A stretch of DNA of 39,295 bases from Desulfurococcales archaeon (GTDB lineage Archaea; Thermoproteota; Thermoprotei_A; Sulfolobales; WANQ01), in NCBI GenBank assembly GCA_027030065.1, contig JALVFK010000045.1, forward strand, positions 1-39,295, given 5' to 3'. A program made the position numbers and the translations under genes. Positions 5,930-35,942 of the stretch are shown piece after piece (positions within the stretch are counted from its first letter, which is position 1; every line of letters begins with the position of its first letter). A model generated the notes under the pieces. It had not been told where the DNA came from and did not search any database. It was given only the letters and a program-made list of their open reading frames with translations.

Positions 5930-8074
5930 TTATACTGGCGGTAATCCCAGCACTATTCTAAGCAATATTATTAGCGGTAGGAATACCGATGATCCTATCG
6001 CCATTAGCTTTATCAGTATGTTCAATGAAGGACCCGCTGCATCCTTCAATGGATCACCTACAGTATCACCTATTACAGCTGCCTTGTGGGCTTCTGATCC
6101 CTTTCCTCCAAAGTGACCGGATTCTATGAATTTCTTAGCATTATCCCATGTATTGCCTACATTACCTTGGAATAAGCCTAGTAATAGACCCGTTATTATA
6201 GCGCCCATTAACATTCCTCCTAGTGCTACTGGTCCAAGCAGAGCTCCAACAATTATTGGTGTGATAAGTGCTAGTACACCTGGCGCTATGAGACGTTTGA
6301 GTGCGTATCTCGTAACAATATCGACTGCTCTATTATAATCGGGTTTCTCTTTCCATTCAAGTATTCCTGGTCTTTCTCTAAACTGCCTCCTAATCTCTTC
6401 CACTAGTGCAAATGCCGCTGCTGTTACCGCTTGTATTACTAGTGCTGTAAAGAACGCTGGTATAGATGCACCTATGAGAAGTCCTGCTAGTACATCGGGC
6501 CTAGTTATCGTGAACACGTTCTCTATATTGAAGCTTAGGTTCATAGAACTGGCATAGTCTTTTAGGAGCGATGCATATGTGAATAATAGTGCCAGCGATG
6601 TTAGAGCAGCAGAACCTATAGCATAGCCCTTAGATATAGATTTCATTGTGTTTCCAGCTGAATCAAGCTTGTCGGCTTGTTCTCGGACTTCTTCTGGATA
6701 TCCGGCTTGCTCGGCTAGTCCAGCGGTATTGTCGACTATAGGTCCGTAGGCATCCGCCGCTACAACGATACTAGCAACAGATAGCATGCCTACGCCTGCT
6801 AGGGCAACTGCATATACTCCTCCTATTAGTGAGGAGAAAGTTGCTAGTGTTGCCGAGCCTATATAGTAAGCAATAAAAGTTGCAATAGCTATTGCGATGG
6901 TTGGTGCAACAGTACTGTAGAAGCCCATTGAGAGACCACTCAGAATCGTTAACGCGGGTCCCGCTTGAGAGCTTGCTGCAACAGTTTTTACGGGCTTATA
7001 GGATCCTGATGTAAAGTAGTCGGATGTAAAGCCGACTATGCCTCCGGCTATAAGTCCCATAACGCCAGCTACCCATAAGTTCACTAATGGAATACCTGTA
7101 TTACTTGAATAAATTACGGATAATGTCAACGTTACTATTGCTACACCAATAATACTAACCAGCGATGTAGTCGTTAGGGTCTTTGAAGGCTCCTTTAATG
7201 GGGATACTTCCACGAATTGTGCTGTTAGAATCGTCGTCAGTAATGCCGCTGCAGCGAATATTAGTGGATAAGCTATCAGCGAGAGTTCTACAACGCCACC
7301 AATGAGCATTCCTATAGCCATTGCCGCTACAACGCTTTCAACATATGATTCAAATAAGTCAGCACTCATTCCCGCACAATCACCTACATTATCACCAACG
7401 TTATCTGCTATTACACCAGGATTCCTTGGATCATCCTCTGGTATTCCTACTTCTACTTTCCCAACAAGATCAGCACCGACGTCAGCTGCCTTAGTATATA
7501 TACCTCCACCTACTCTAGCAAACAATGCCACCGTGCTAGCTCCAAAAGCATATCCTAATAGTGCTTTCACAGCTTCACTATACATGCCGCTGAGACCACC
7601 AAACGCTATAAATAATAGTGATATACCGAGTAATCCTACACCCCCCACCATAAATCCTGTAACTGCGCCTCCACGAAAAGCTACTCTCAATGCTTTTGAT
7701 AGTCCTTGTTCAACTAGGACTCTGAGAACTCTAACATTGCTTAAAACCGCTATATACATGCCCAGTACTCCAACAAGAGTTGAACTCAACGCTCCAGCAA
7801 AATAGGCAAGCCCCGTCTTTAACATTAATGTACTTCCGCCTGCTACTCCAGCCGCTATAATTAGAGCAGCTACTATTACCGCTATTGTTAGGATAACACT
7901 GTATTGTCTCTTCATAAATGTTACTGCAGCACTTTTAATGTATCCATGTATTTCTGCCGCTTTGTCTTCTGGTACCTTAATCTTTAATATCATGTATATT
8001 AATGCAAGAACATATAGTATTGATGCAGTACCCGCTATTATTCCAAATGTTGTAGCTATGTTTAGCAAGTTCAT
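5930..8074 (-). CDS. hppA: Membrane-bound proton-translocating pyrophosphatase
   Basis: This enzyme hydrolyses pyrophosphate and pumps H+ across the cytoplasmic membrane. It has 714 residues and about 16 membrane segments, the normal size. The active-site run DVGADLVGKVE lies at about 198-208, followed by the acidic DNVGDNVGDCAG motif and VVAADAYGPIVDN (about 437-449). In GNTMKSISKG, Lys478 sits where K+-dependent enzymes have alanine. This predicts a K+-independent H+ pump. The start chosen is the ATG at 8072-8074, because the purine-rich GGGAGGG ribosome site sits 9-10 bases before it. The upstream TTG at 8098 would place that site inside the coding region. A TATA-like AATTATAAATC (minus strand, around 8133-8146) lies about 60 bases upstream. 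Confidence 0.95.
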   Translation of the reverse strand: MNLLNIATTFGIIAGTASILYVLALIYMILKIKVPEDKAAEIHGYIKSAAVTFMKRQYSVILTIAVIVAALIIAAGVAGGSTLMLKTGLAYFAGALSSTLVGVLGMYIAVLSNVRVLRVLVEQGLSKALRVAFRGGAVTGFMVGGVGLLGISLLFIAFGGLSGMYSEAVKALLGYAFGASTVALFARVGGGIYTKAADVGADLVGKVEVGIPEDDPRNPGVIADNVGDNVGDCAGMSADLFESYVESVVAAMAIGMLIGGVVELSLIAYPLIFAAAALLTTILTAQFVEVSPLKEPSKTLTTTSLVSIIGVAIVTLTLSVIYSSNTGIPLVNLWVAGVMGLIAGGIVGFTSDYFTSGSYKPVKTVAASSQAGPALTILSGLSMGFYSTVAPTIAIAIATFIAYYIGSATLATFSSLIGGVYAVALAGVGMLSVASIVVAADAYGPIVDNTAGLAEQAGYPEEVREQADKLDSAGNTMKSISKGYAIGSAALTSLALLFTYASLLKDYASSMNLSFNIENVFTITRPDVLAGLLIGASIPAFFTALVIQAVTAAAFALVEEIRRQFRERPGILEWKEKPDYNRAVDIVTRYALKRLIAPGVLALITPIIVGALLGPVALGGMLMGAIITGLLLGLFQGNVGNTWDNAKKFIESGHFGGKGSEAHKAAVIGDTVGDPLKDAAGPSLNILIKLMAIGSSVFLPLIILLRIVLGLPPV

Positions 8075-8132
8075 TGTTTCCGCACCCTCCCTACACAACT
8101 GTTTTAAGGGATTTAAGAAGTTAATTCTCTTT

Positions 8133-8146
8133 GATTTATAATTATT
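8133..8146. promoter_or_regulatory. TATA-like element between hppA and C/D box sRNA
   Basis: GATTTATAATTATT reads as a TATA box in either direction. On the minus strand it would start hppA transcription near 8112, leaving a short leader with the GGGAGGG site. On the plus strand it lies about 30 bases ahead of the C/D box sRNA; a second candidate, CTATAATAA, begins at 8153. Geometry is the only evidence. Confidence 0.4.
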
Positions 8147-8172: not shown

Positions 8173-8236
8173 GGGCCGTGAAGATAGAACCCGAGCCTGA
8201 CCTCATATTGTGATGAGGGTCGGCGCGACGGAGCCC
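8173..8236 (+). ncRNA. Archaeal C/D box guide sRNA (first of two)
   Basis: The element order is exact: terminal stem GGGC (8173-8176), C box GTGAAGA (8178-8184), 12-nt guide (8185-8196), D' box CTGA (8197-8200), 9-nt spacer, C' box GTGATGA (8210-8216), 12-nt guide (8217-8228), D box CGGA (8229-8232), stem GCCC (8233-8236). Both guides have the ideal 12-nt length for L7Ae/Nop5/fibrillarin particles. The terminal C and D boxes each deviate at one base. In the kink-turn those two bases pair with each other (U-U normally, A-G here), so the change may be compensatory. By the D+5 rule the D' guide would methylate the fifth base, G, of GCUCGGGUUCUA, a T-arm-like tRNA sequence. The D guide would methylate the fifth base, G, of UCGCGCCGACCC. 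Targets are unverified. Confidence 0.8.
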
Positions 8237-8246
8237 ATTAATATTC

Positions 8247-8816
8247 TTAAAATTTCTCTATTACTTCATTGCTTATTCCTAGTCTACGTATAATTTCCTT
8301 TATTCTTCTTGAAACTCTATCAGACCTCCAAGGCATAATGGATGCCGTTGCAACGTTGTCTATTACTTCTATCTTCAACTCATATTCTATTCCTTTAAAT
8401 GCAAGTTCAAACCCCATTTCCTTTAATAATTTGAATATATTTTCCTCAATTACTTTCTTATTATAAAGATGTCCTCTTACAGTTATTTCCAATCCTATTC
8501 TTTTATCATTAACACGTTTCATTAATAATGATTTAATACATGGTAGTAATTTGTTAAGTTCGCTCTCAGTACAACATTCTACTACTATGATACGGGACGC
8601 CCCGTGTATGGGATATGTATTTACGAGCCAGAAGGCTCTCCAGGGACTAAGACTAGTATATACTAATAGTACTCCAGAATACTTTGTATGCTTTATGGTG
8701 ACATCTATATCCTCTATATATAGAGAATCGCCTACCTGGTTTTCAACGACCTCCTCCTTACCTGGTTTTGTAGTAACGATTAACTTAAGGTTTTTACACG
8801 AATGCAGAGTATACAC
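8247..8816 (-). CDS. THUMP-domain RNA-binding protein
   Basis: This is a small stand-alone protein of 189 residues resembling the THUMP family, which binds tRNA acceptor regions for modification enzymes. Typical features are an N-terminal LIVTTKPGKEEVVENQVGDSL-like segment, SPWRAFWLVNTYPIHGASRI (about 57-76) and a C-terminal strand with ITVRGHLYNKKVIEENIFKLL (about 111-131). No methyltransferase or acetylation catalytic domain follows. By analogy with Tan1-like proteins it could be an adaptor for a tRNA modifier, but that is inference. The start is GTG (8814-8816). CTATATAAA on the minus strand (8857-8865) lies about 45 bases upstream. The sRNA ends 11 bases before its stop, on the opposite strand. 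Confidence 0.75.
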   Translation of the reverse strand: MYTLHSCKNLKLIVTTKPGKEEVVENQVGDSLYIEDIDVTIKHTKYSGVLLVYTSLSPWRAFWLVNTYPIHGASRIIVVECCTESELNKLLPCIKSLLMKRVNDKRIGLEITVRGHLYNKKVIEENIFKLLKEMGFELAFKGIEYELKIEVIDNVATASIMPWRSDRVSRRIKEIIRRLGISNEVIEKF

Positions 8817-34570: not shown

Positions 34571-35240
34571 AGACTATCTCACCTACTCTATTGCCTCGGG
34601 CAAAACGTATTATGTATTCAATGGCTTTCTCTGCCGCTTGTCTAACTAGTTCTCCTGGAACCCTGGGAACACCGCAAGCAACTACCAGAACACGTTTTGT
34701 ATCATTCCTAATCATTGTATACTTACTATCTCGGTGGGGATATAAGTGTAGTATCTTCTCCTCATCTGCAAGAACAGGTATACCTTCTTCTAAGACCTCT
34801 GTTGATCCGCCTATAGGCTCGAATATCTCACCGCGTTTCGATAAACGTAATACTAAAGAACCCTTGATTCTATCTAAGTCGTATATCCCTATCGGTACTA
34901 GGGTTTCCACACTAGCAAAATTACCAGCATCAACAACGTTATTTATTAATGGCATTGAACTAGACCTCAGTATCCTTCTTAAGAGAGCCTCACTACTAGG
35001 TCTTGTCTTAGTCGGGTCTATACCTATTCTCCAATAGAAGTCTCTATAGGCTCTTATTATAGGATGCTCCTTTAGTCTTTCAATACTATACTGCTCTCGT
35101 ATTTTCGATATCAATTGTTTAGCGTATTCTTTAACATCTACTCTATTCTTCTCAACAACAAGGCTCTCAACGATACCGTATGCTATATGTATACCCAGCT
35201 TCCTAGCCCCATTATCAATCCTTATCCTAACAATATTCAA
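34560..35240 (-). CDS. B3/B4 tRNA-binding-domain protein
   Basis: This is a stand-alone B3/B4 domain protein of 226 residues, related to the editing-like domain of phenylalanyl-tRNA synthetase beta. Typical parts are HPIIRAYRDFYWRIGIDPTKTRPSSEALLRRIL, LINNVVDAGNFASVETLVPIGIYDLDRIKG, EILHLYPHRDSKYTMIRNDTKRVLVVACG-like sequence and GVPRVPGELVRQAAEKA. A role in clearing mischarged tRNA or as another hydrolase is possible, with function unproven. The start is a TTG about 10 bases after a strong GGAGGAGAG ribosome site. It precedes the IMPase-family gene and overlaps it. Confidence 0.85.
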   Translation of the reverse strand: MNIVRIRIDNGARKLGIHIAYGIVESLVVEKNRVDVKEYAKQLISKIREQYSIERLKEHPIIRAYRDFYWRIGIDPTKTRPSSEALLRRILRSSSMPLINNVVDAGNFASVETLVPIGIYDLDRIKGSLVLRLSKRGEIFEPIGGSTEVLEEGIPVLADEEKILHLYPHRDSKYTMIRNDTKRVLVVACGVPRVPGELVRQAAEKAIEYIIRFARGNRVGEIVYEH

Positions 35241-35303: not shown

Positions 35304-35371
35304 GTTTTCTGGATGATGTATGCACGTCAAACTGAATACAGTGATGTTAACGGCCGTGAGCTGACGAAAAC
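35304..35371 (+). ncRNA. Archaeal C/D box guide sRNA (second of two)
   Basis: The order is terminal stem GTTTTC (35304-35309), C box ATGATGT (35313-35319), 12-nt guide (35320-35331), D' CTGA (35332-35335), 5-nt spacer, C' GTGATGT (35341-35347), 13-nt guide (35348-35360), D CTGA (35361-35364) and stem GAAAAC (35366-35371). The two C boxes share a T in the last place, and both D boxes are perfect. The 6-bp terminal inverted repeat closes the RNA. A TATA-like TTTTAAAA near 35279-35286 is about 26 bases from the 5' end. By the D+5 rule the D' guide targets the A at position 5 of UUUGACGUGCAU. The D guide targets the C at position 5 of CUCACGGCCGUUA. The RNAs being modified are not identified. Confidence 0.82.
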
Positions 35372-35414: not shown

Positions 35415-35942
35415 ATGTTCCAAGTAGGGTTCGCAGGCATAGGTGAACCACCGCCAATAGAATTAAAGAATAAGGTACGAGTGATAATACGTCTCTTTAA
35501 AAACTGTTGCCCAAACGCCATTATAATGACAGGCGGCTATTGGGGAATAATGAAAACTGTTGTCGATGAGGCAGTACGGGTAGGTCTTATAACGGTAATT
35601 TTTCCGCCCGTTGAAAAAGAGGTATGCCATAATAGCTCAATATGTATTAAGAGTGGTTTGAGCTACAAGAATAGAAGTATACCTCTCGTAAGAAGCAGTA
35701 ATGTCCTTGTGGTAGTAGGAGGCGGAGCTGGAACATTATTGGAACTTGTAACTGCTTATGCTATTGGAGTACCCGTACTAGTGCTAGTTAATACTGGTTT
35801 TACTACAGACAACGTGGAGAACTGTTTTGGAGAATACCTTGACCATAGGAAAACTGTAAAGATACATTATTATAGGCAACCGGAGAATTTAGCACAAGCT
35901 TTATGTAGTCTCTGTAGAAAAGGCGGTTTACATGAACAATAA
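35415..35942 (+). CDS. SLOG/LOG-like Rossmann nucleotide-binding protein
   Basis: This is a 175-residue Rossmann protein of the SLOG superfamily, near the TIGR00725/LOG group (predicted nucleotide phosphoribohydrolases or cofactor carriers). The N-terminal MFQVGFAGIGEPPP, MTGGYWGIMKTVVDEAVRVG (about 38-57) and VVVGGGAGTLLELVTAYAIGVPVLVLVN (about 98-125) match the family's glycine-rich loops and the GG-GT-EL catalytic-like segment. The number of cysteines is high (about eight), with no clear pattern. The substrate is unknown. It overlaps the following aminotransferase gene by 11 bases, so the two are co-transcribed. The ATG is about 25-30 bases from a TATA-like GTAAATAC. Confidence 0.78.
   Translation: MFQVGFAGIGEPPPIELKNKVRVIIRLFKNCCPNAIIMTGGYWGIMKTVVDEAVRVGLITVIFPPVEKEVCHNSSICIKSGLSYKNRSIPLVRSSNVLVVVGGGAGTLLELVTAYAIGVPVLVLVNTGFTTDNVENCFGEYLDHRKTVKIHYYRQPENLAQALCSLCRKGGLHEQ

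Follow-up and report, generated by a model that had tools for sequence, protein, structure and literature searches.

A predicted box C/D guide sRNA of a Desulfurococcales-related archaeon with an A:G kink-turn pair and candidate tRNA targets

The box C/D sRNAs of archaea are dual guides carrying the boxes RUGAUGA and CUGA (Omer 2000, Dennis 2015 PMC4644070, Lui 2018), and their kink-turns show a strong preference for U:U at the 3b:3n pair (PMC5689011). In the ribosomal kink-turn Kt-7, A:G is among the 3b:3n pairs that fold best in ions and Watson-Crick pairs are poor, and L7Ae rescued even a G-C variant that does not fold (PMC4382518). Folding is raised by two exchanges, which give C:G at -1b:-1n and A:G at 3b:3n (PMC5689011). 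On the substrate side, C/D-guided modification of G26 has been predicted for tRNA-Val and tRNA-Gly of P. furiosus and m22Gm26 has been observed (PMC7668247), and a review lists the enzyme that adds the ribose methyl of m22Gm26 as unknown (PMC6313347).

The window, i.e. the whole stretch of 39,295 nucleotides that was analysed (G+C content 38%), contains at 8173–8236 on the forward strand a 64-nt candidate with the layout GGGC-C-GUGAAGA-UAGAACCCGAGC-CUGA-spacer-GUGAUGA-GGGUCGGCGCGA-CGGA-GCCC, which is almost certainly a box C/D guide sRNA from an archaeon related to the Desulfurococcales, as an earlier note on this DNA had proposed; both guides and boxes are conserved across genera and families. 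It resembles the described archaeal box C/D sRNAs in its length, the four boxes, two 12-nt guides, a terminal stem, the 3-nt bulge, tandem G.A pairs and the spacing from guide to box, and it is unlike them in having A:G and not U:U at 3b:3n, a slightly long spacer and no Rfam match, since a scan of the window gave no family that matches the sRNA at the gathering threshold.

The 5' half of the terminal stem, GGGC (8173–8176), ends in C8176, position -1b of the kink-turn, and pairs with the 3' half GCCC (8233–8236), in which G8233 is -1n; the stem can be extended by one pair, U8172-A8237, and GGC/GCC is kept in G003, a genome from another genus of the same family. A kink-turn bulge of three bases, C-G-U (8177–8179), follows, the last two of which double as the first two bases of box C, GUGAAGA (8178–8184), where A8182 at position 3b replaces U. 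The D' guide UAGAACCCGAGC (12 nt, 8185–8196) has C8192 as the fifth base from box D', predicted to lie opposite tRNA G51, and is followed by box D', CUGA (8197–8200), which was read from the sequence and from the relatives. The D'-C' spacer covers 8201–8209 (its end is 8209 or 8210 depending on how box C' is read), with 10 nt to the U of box C'. Box C' is GUGAUGA (8210–8216) with an optional leading G, (G)UGAUGA, and precedes the D guide GGGUCGGCGCGA (12 nt, 8217–8228), whose C8224 is the fifth base from box D and is predicted to lie opposite tRNA G26. Box D, CGGA (8229–8232), carries G8230 at position 3n in place of U. The tandem pairs G8180.A8232 and A8181.G8231 are present together with the bulge C8177-G8178-U8179 and the stem GGGC/GCCC, and the terminal motif departs from the consensus only at 3b:3n. 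The internal motif, formed by CUGA and GUGAUGA, has the U:U pair and what a k-loop or k-turn requires. Direct reading thus agrees throughout with the four boxes, two exact 12-nt guides and GGGC/GCCC stem that had been described in these 64 bases.

The sRNA is flanked by a membrane pyrophosphatase gene on the minus strand (ORF 5930–8098) and by an ORF of 189 residues, also on the minus strand (8247–8816), and no ORF of at least 60 amino acids covers 8173–8236 on either strand. Expression, which we infer, might start from TTTATAAT at 8135–8142 (+), a possible TATA box judged by its spacing to 8173, which overlaps the divergent promoter region of the pyrophosphatase gene; this upstream region is conserved in G001 and G002, two genomes of the same genus. 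A second C/D sRNA was seen at 35313–35364 (+) of the window, with box C AUGAUGU, box D' CUGA, box C' UGAUGU and box D CUGA, in the intergenic region between an ORF ending at 35240 and another starting at 35415.

The architecture was also used as a search pattern, with box C RUGANGA, box D CNGA, near-consensus D'/C' boxes, guides of 9–13 nt and a terminal stem with three or more pairs. The scan found the site at 8173 and three others in 348 kb of the organism's own genome, and in the 407 kb of G003 the orthologue was the single match; no site turned up in about 3.1 Mb of random strand with matched dinucleotides, in line with the earlier judgement that such an arrangement is very unlikely by chance. 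A second scan without the stem and with tighter boxes gave 11 matches in three genomes, to be compared with 0.3 expected.

The same RNA is present in G001 and G002, where changes are confined to the spacer and one edge base of the D' guide. In G003 UAGAACCCGAG and GGUCGGCGCGA are kept exactly, with guide identity over 10–11 nt, and the D'-C' spacer is shortened from 10 nt in the window to 4 nt; spacer and flanks diverge but the guides do not. The G003 sRNA lies head to head with a membrane pyrophosphatase gene, as in the window. The alignment that had been suggested as a check hence found boxes and guides conserved in all three of these genomes, including the sister genus. A covariance model built from the four sequences (the window, G001, G002 and G003) led to relatives in further families of the order, and 21 homologues with the same anatomy and guide order are found in at least two families. 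They keep GAACCCGNG before box D' and GGUYGGCG before box D, and their spacers measure 4–24 nt and in some contain a hairpin. In the f9 homologues L144, L219, L137, L151 and L182 the long D'-C' spacer can form a hairpin, which is perfect in some of them, and by its sequence such a hairpin can cap the k-loop with a stem and so make a genuine k-turn of it.

The sequence AGAACCCGAG is identical in f1, f3 and f11, and it recurs in the D guide position of another C/D sRNA in L143, L158, L160 and L181 (f3) and in L159 (f11), where the partner guide is AGGUCCGC in three of the five; the re-use of AGAACCCGAG between sRNAs suggests guide shuffling. A supposed paralogue with the guide AGAACCCCCGG (G003:C23, G002:C176) was rejected as it lies inside a shared open frame (EAVK.EPPAE) and has no boxes C' and D. 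Viral contigs gave nine matches to a 16-mer, which is about chance level.

Potential targets were ranked over about 19,900 sites in tRNAs, 16S, 23S, SRP and 5S RNA, with a scoring window of guide positions 2–11 and weights of our own choice. For the 13 distinct D' guides the best mean site lies in the T-arm of tRNA-Thr, at a tie with tRNA-Ser, with the fifth position opposite G51, and for the 14 D guides it is again tRNA-Thr (tied with some tRNA-Arg), with the fifth position opposite G26. By block-wise permutation of columns the score of each guide has p = 0.01, the same isoacceptor comes out on top for both guides in 0.75% of the permutations, and all conditions coincide in 0 of 400. The joint score has p = 0.001 for the whole family, p = 0.001 for f9 alone and p = 0.03 for f1 alone, the homologues not being independent of each other. 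When only the f1 guides are scored, the best joint site lies in a different tRNA, whose intron is matched by the D guide with a mismatch at the target base, and single-guide tests of f1 against its own tRNAs are not significant (p ~0.3–0.4). The search of the guides against tRNA that the earlier note had advised is significant at the level of the family ranking and not for the single guides of f1. The tRNA sets are incomplete, with no tRNA-Tyr found and only 13 tRNA sequences from G076.

The D guide and positions 24–32 of tRNA-Thr can form nine pairs, eight of them Watson-Crick and one G-U, set against a threshold for tRNA guides of at least nine consecutive Watson-Crick pairs that include the fifth guide position. 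Across the family, positions 8 and 9 of the D guide are CU, UU or UC, and both C and U pair with G29-G30. These family data point the D guide to tRNA G26. The D' guide makes seven consecutive pairs (50–56) plus C48 in f1, with mismatches at 49 and 57; both mismatches are seen in G000 and G003, and the one opposite position 57 had been foreseen. No tRNA with a U49/A49-C50-GGG-UUC arm, the full match of the D' guide, was found in 16 genomes when up to one mismatch was allowed. The proposal that the D' guide directs methylation of tRNA G51 keeps its top rank at the family level, is weak in the window's own species, and has against it the two mismatches in G000 and G003 and the lack of a fully matching arm in those 16 genomes. 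We put the chances at about even that the substrates are tRNAs, tRNA-Thr(UGU/CGU) above all.

In the mechanism that would follow, L7Ae should bind the two kink-turn/kink-loop motifs and be joined by Nop5 and fibrillarin, each guide would pair with its substrate, and the base opposite the fifth guide position would be 2'-O-methylated. The D guide would pair with tRNA-Thr 24–32 (GCGCCGGCC, one G-U pair) and direct the methyl group to G26, and the D' guide would pair with C48 and 50–56 of the T-arm and direct it to G51. A crude motif search for the L7Ae, Nop5 and fibrillarin genes, in partial genome stretches only, gave no match and is uninformative. The reading as a whole, i.e. a C/D guide sRNA with G26 and G51 of tRNA-Thr as likely substrates and a kink-turn of the Kt-7 type, is favoured by a small degree. 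Wider and more tentative, with the doubts prevailing, is the proposal that this sRNA family, conserved in several families of the order, is a double guide for 2'-O-methylation of tRNA-Thr at G26 and G51, and in part of further tRNAs that have CGCCGGCC stems, constituting an RNA-guided route to m22Gm26 in these thermophiles, and that in the genus of the window its terminal kink-turn has drifted into a Kt-7-like, protein-independent form. A published survey describes sRNAs targeting tRNA as usually having one orphan guide (PMC7994747), which counts against a tRNA double guide, and methylation at tRNA position 51 was not found in searches of PMC7668247 and PMC6313347. Should the tRNA prediction prove right, the ribose methyl of m22Gm26 would have a testable source, and both guides of one sRNA would act on one tRNA, unlike the usual pattern of one guide.

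The strongest of the alternatives, which we consider unlikely, is that the RNA is a C/D guide sRNA with lineage-specific rRNA targets that are hidden by assemblies without rRNA genes, so that the similarity to tRNA is a coincidence. The 16S and 23S genes of its own family are indeed absent from the assemblies G000–G003, more than half of the guides in a survey of Pyrobaculum have rRNA targets (PMC7994747), and AGAACCCGAG is shared by f1, f3 and f11 as if it had a conserved partner. Because of the missing genes the rRNA of relatives was searched instead, and this part of the advised guide search gave no consistent site. Although the f9 guides do not vary between genera, comparison with the 16S and 23S RNAs of four f9 genomes (G076, G011, G134 and G082) gave no shared match of at least 9 bp at a homologous site; applied to the sRNA at 35313 of the window and to one in G003, the scan did detect conserved 23S targets. 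The former served as control for the target method: its D' guide AUGCACGUCAAA has a 9-bp match to 23S that recurs at one and the same site in four related genomes, and in G134 its D guide matches 23S about 85 nt away. The f1 guides gave nothing consistent with the rRNA of G010, G032 and G008, and were no better than shuffled guides in the one genome so tested. The motifs CGGGUUC and GCCGACC near 23S positions 300–370 looked promising in G076 and G019 and were rejected by their misfit to the guides of G011 or G134, and the 16S leader of G076 matches both guides, which is not so in the other genomes. From these comparisons tRNA is the best remaining target class.

Rather improbable is that one or both guides are orphans, the RNA acting as a chaperone or on mRNA and directing no methylation of tRNA or rRNA. 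About a third of the archaeal sRNAs have no rRNA match (PMC4644070), and no tRNA, SRP or 5S RNA matches the D' guide in full; neither guide matches the SRP and 5S RNA of G003. Against this stands the conservation of both guides across families, and accumulated mutations have been described as what gives rise to orphan guides (PMC7994747). A whole-genome search for the target of the f9 D' guide also speaks against it, since apart from the sRNA itself the exact 11-mer matches lie in unrelated places. That the site is no guide sRNA and instead a GC-rich hairpin, a terminator, a regulatory element or a chance product is very improbable, since the hairpin spanning D'/C', which the strand forms slightly better than shuffles (z ~ -2), is missing in G003 (z +0.85) where boxes and guides are retained, and since the homologues, the empty random strand and the lack of a long ORF over the site all argue for a guide sRNA.

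Returning to the guide sRNA and its kink-turn, A8182 and G8230 face each other, as had been pointed out, and in Lilley's nomenclature their positions are 3b:3n, so that the pair is A:G and departs from the U:U consensus. The terminal 3b:3n pair among the 21 homologues is U:U in 14, A:U in three, A:G in two, and G:C and A:A in one each. The internal pair is A:A, U:U, A:G, U:G or A:U, where the C' box of G129 can be read in two ways and was counted as U:U but could be A:U. The two unusual bases had been explained as a compensating box change. This holds in so far as both sides vary partly together in the homologues (G:C being a replacement of the Watson-Crick type), but in G003 the orthologue combines the C box AUGAAGA with the normal CUGA as D box, i.e. 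A:U, so the changes are not obligately coupled. With A:U and a normal D box in the sister genus the simplest route is from U:U over A:U to A:G, and A:G has probably arisen in this way and not by one compensating event.

Further unannotated C/D sRNA candidates in the organism's own genome, L096 (-) 11429, L100 (-) 5055 and L110 (+) 11896, have U:U, A:A and G:C at 3b:3n. As homologues and other C/D sRNAs of the clade depart from U:U, this pair is no strict requirement. An unrelated C/D sRNA in G003, L121 (-) ~17239, has the same GUGAAGA/CGGA boxes and a D guide with a 10-bp 23S match that is conserved in three genomes, and the A:G variant is thus compatible with an ordinary sRNA. As judged from the aligned sequences, 3b:3n is a variable, partly coupled position of the kink-turn, and A:G is one tolerated state and no new device.

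The 64-nt RNA itself is of an ordinary, known kind, and what it adds is a double-guide family that is conserved and has predicted tRNA substrates. Among the known systems, the Pyrococcus C/D sRNAs for G26 of tRNA-Val and tRNA-Gly (snoRNAdb, as cited in PMC7668247) have the same predicted 2'-O-methylation at G26; the likeness is one of predicted target, and they differ in that both guides here would aim at one tRNA, at G26 and G51 of tRNA-Thr. The Haloarcula marismortui ribosomal kink-turn Kt-7 (PMC4382518, PMC5689011) shares A:G at 3b:3n and C:G at -1b:-1n with the window RNA, which unlike Kt-7 has G:C at 4b:4n and a CGU loop, as in box C/D. With these pairs in this loop context the terminal kink-turn probably folds in Mg2+ before protein is bound, without L7Ae, by analogy to the Kt-7 type. 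The family offers a natural series of U:U, A:U and A:G at the pair that sets ion-dependent folding, which should be useful for asking whether C/D kink-turns must wait for L7Ae. The CGU loop sequence is the same as in the A. fulgidus box C/D kink-turn studied in PMC5689011, and in the elements exchanged there the window RNA equals the engineered box C/D variant with the double change.
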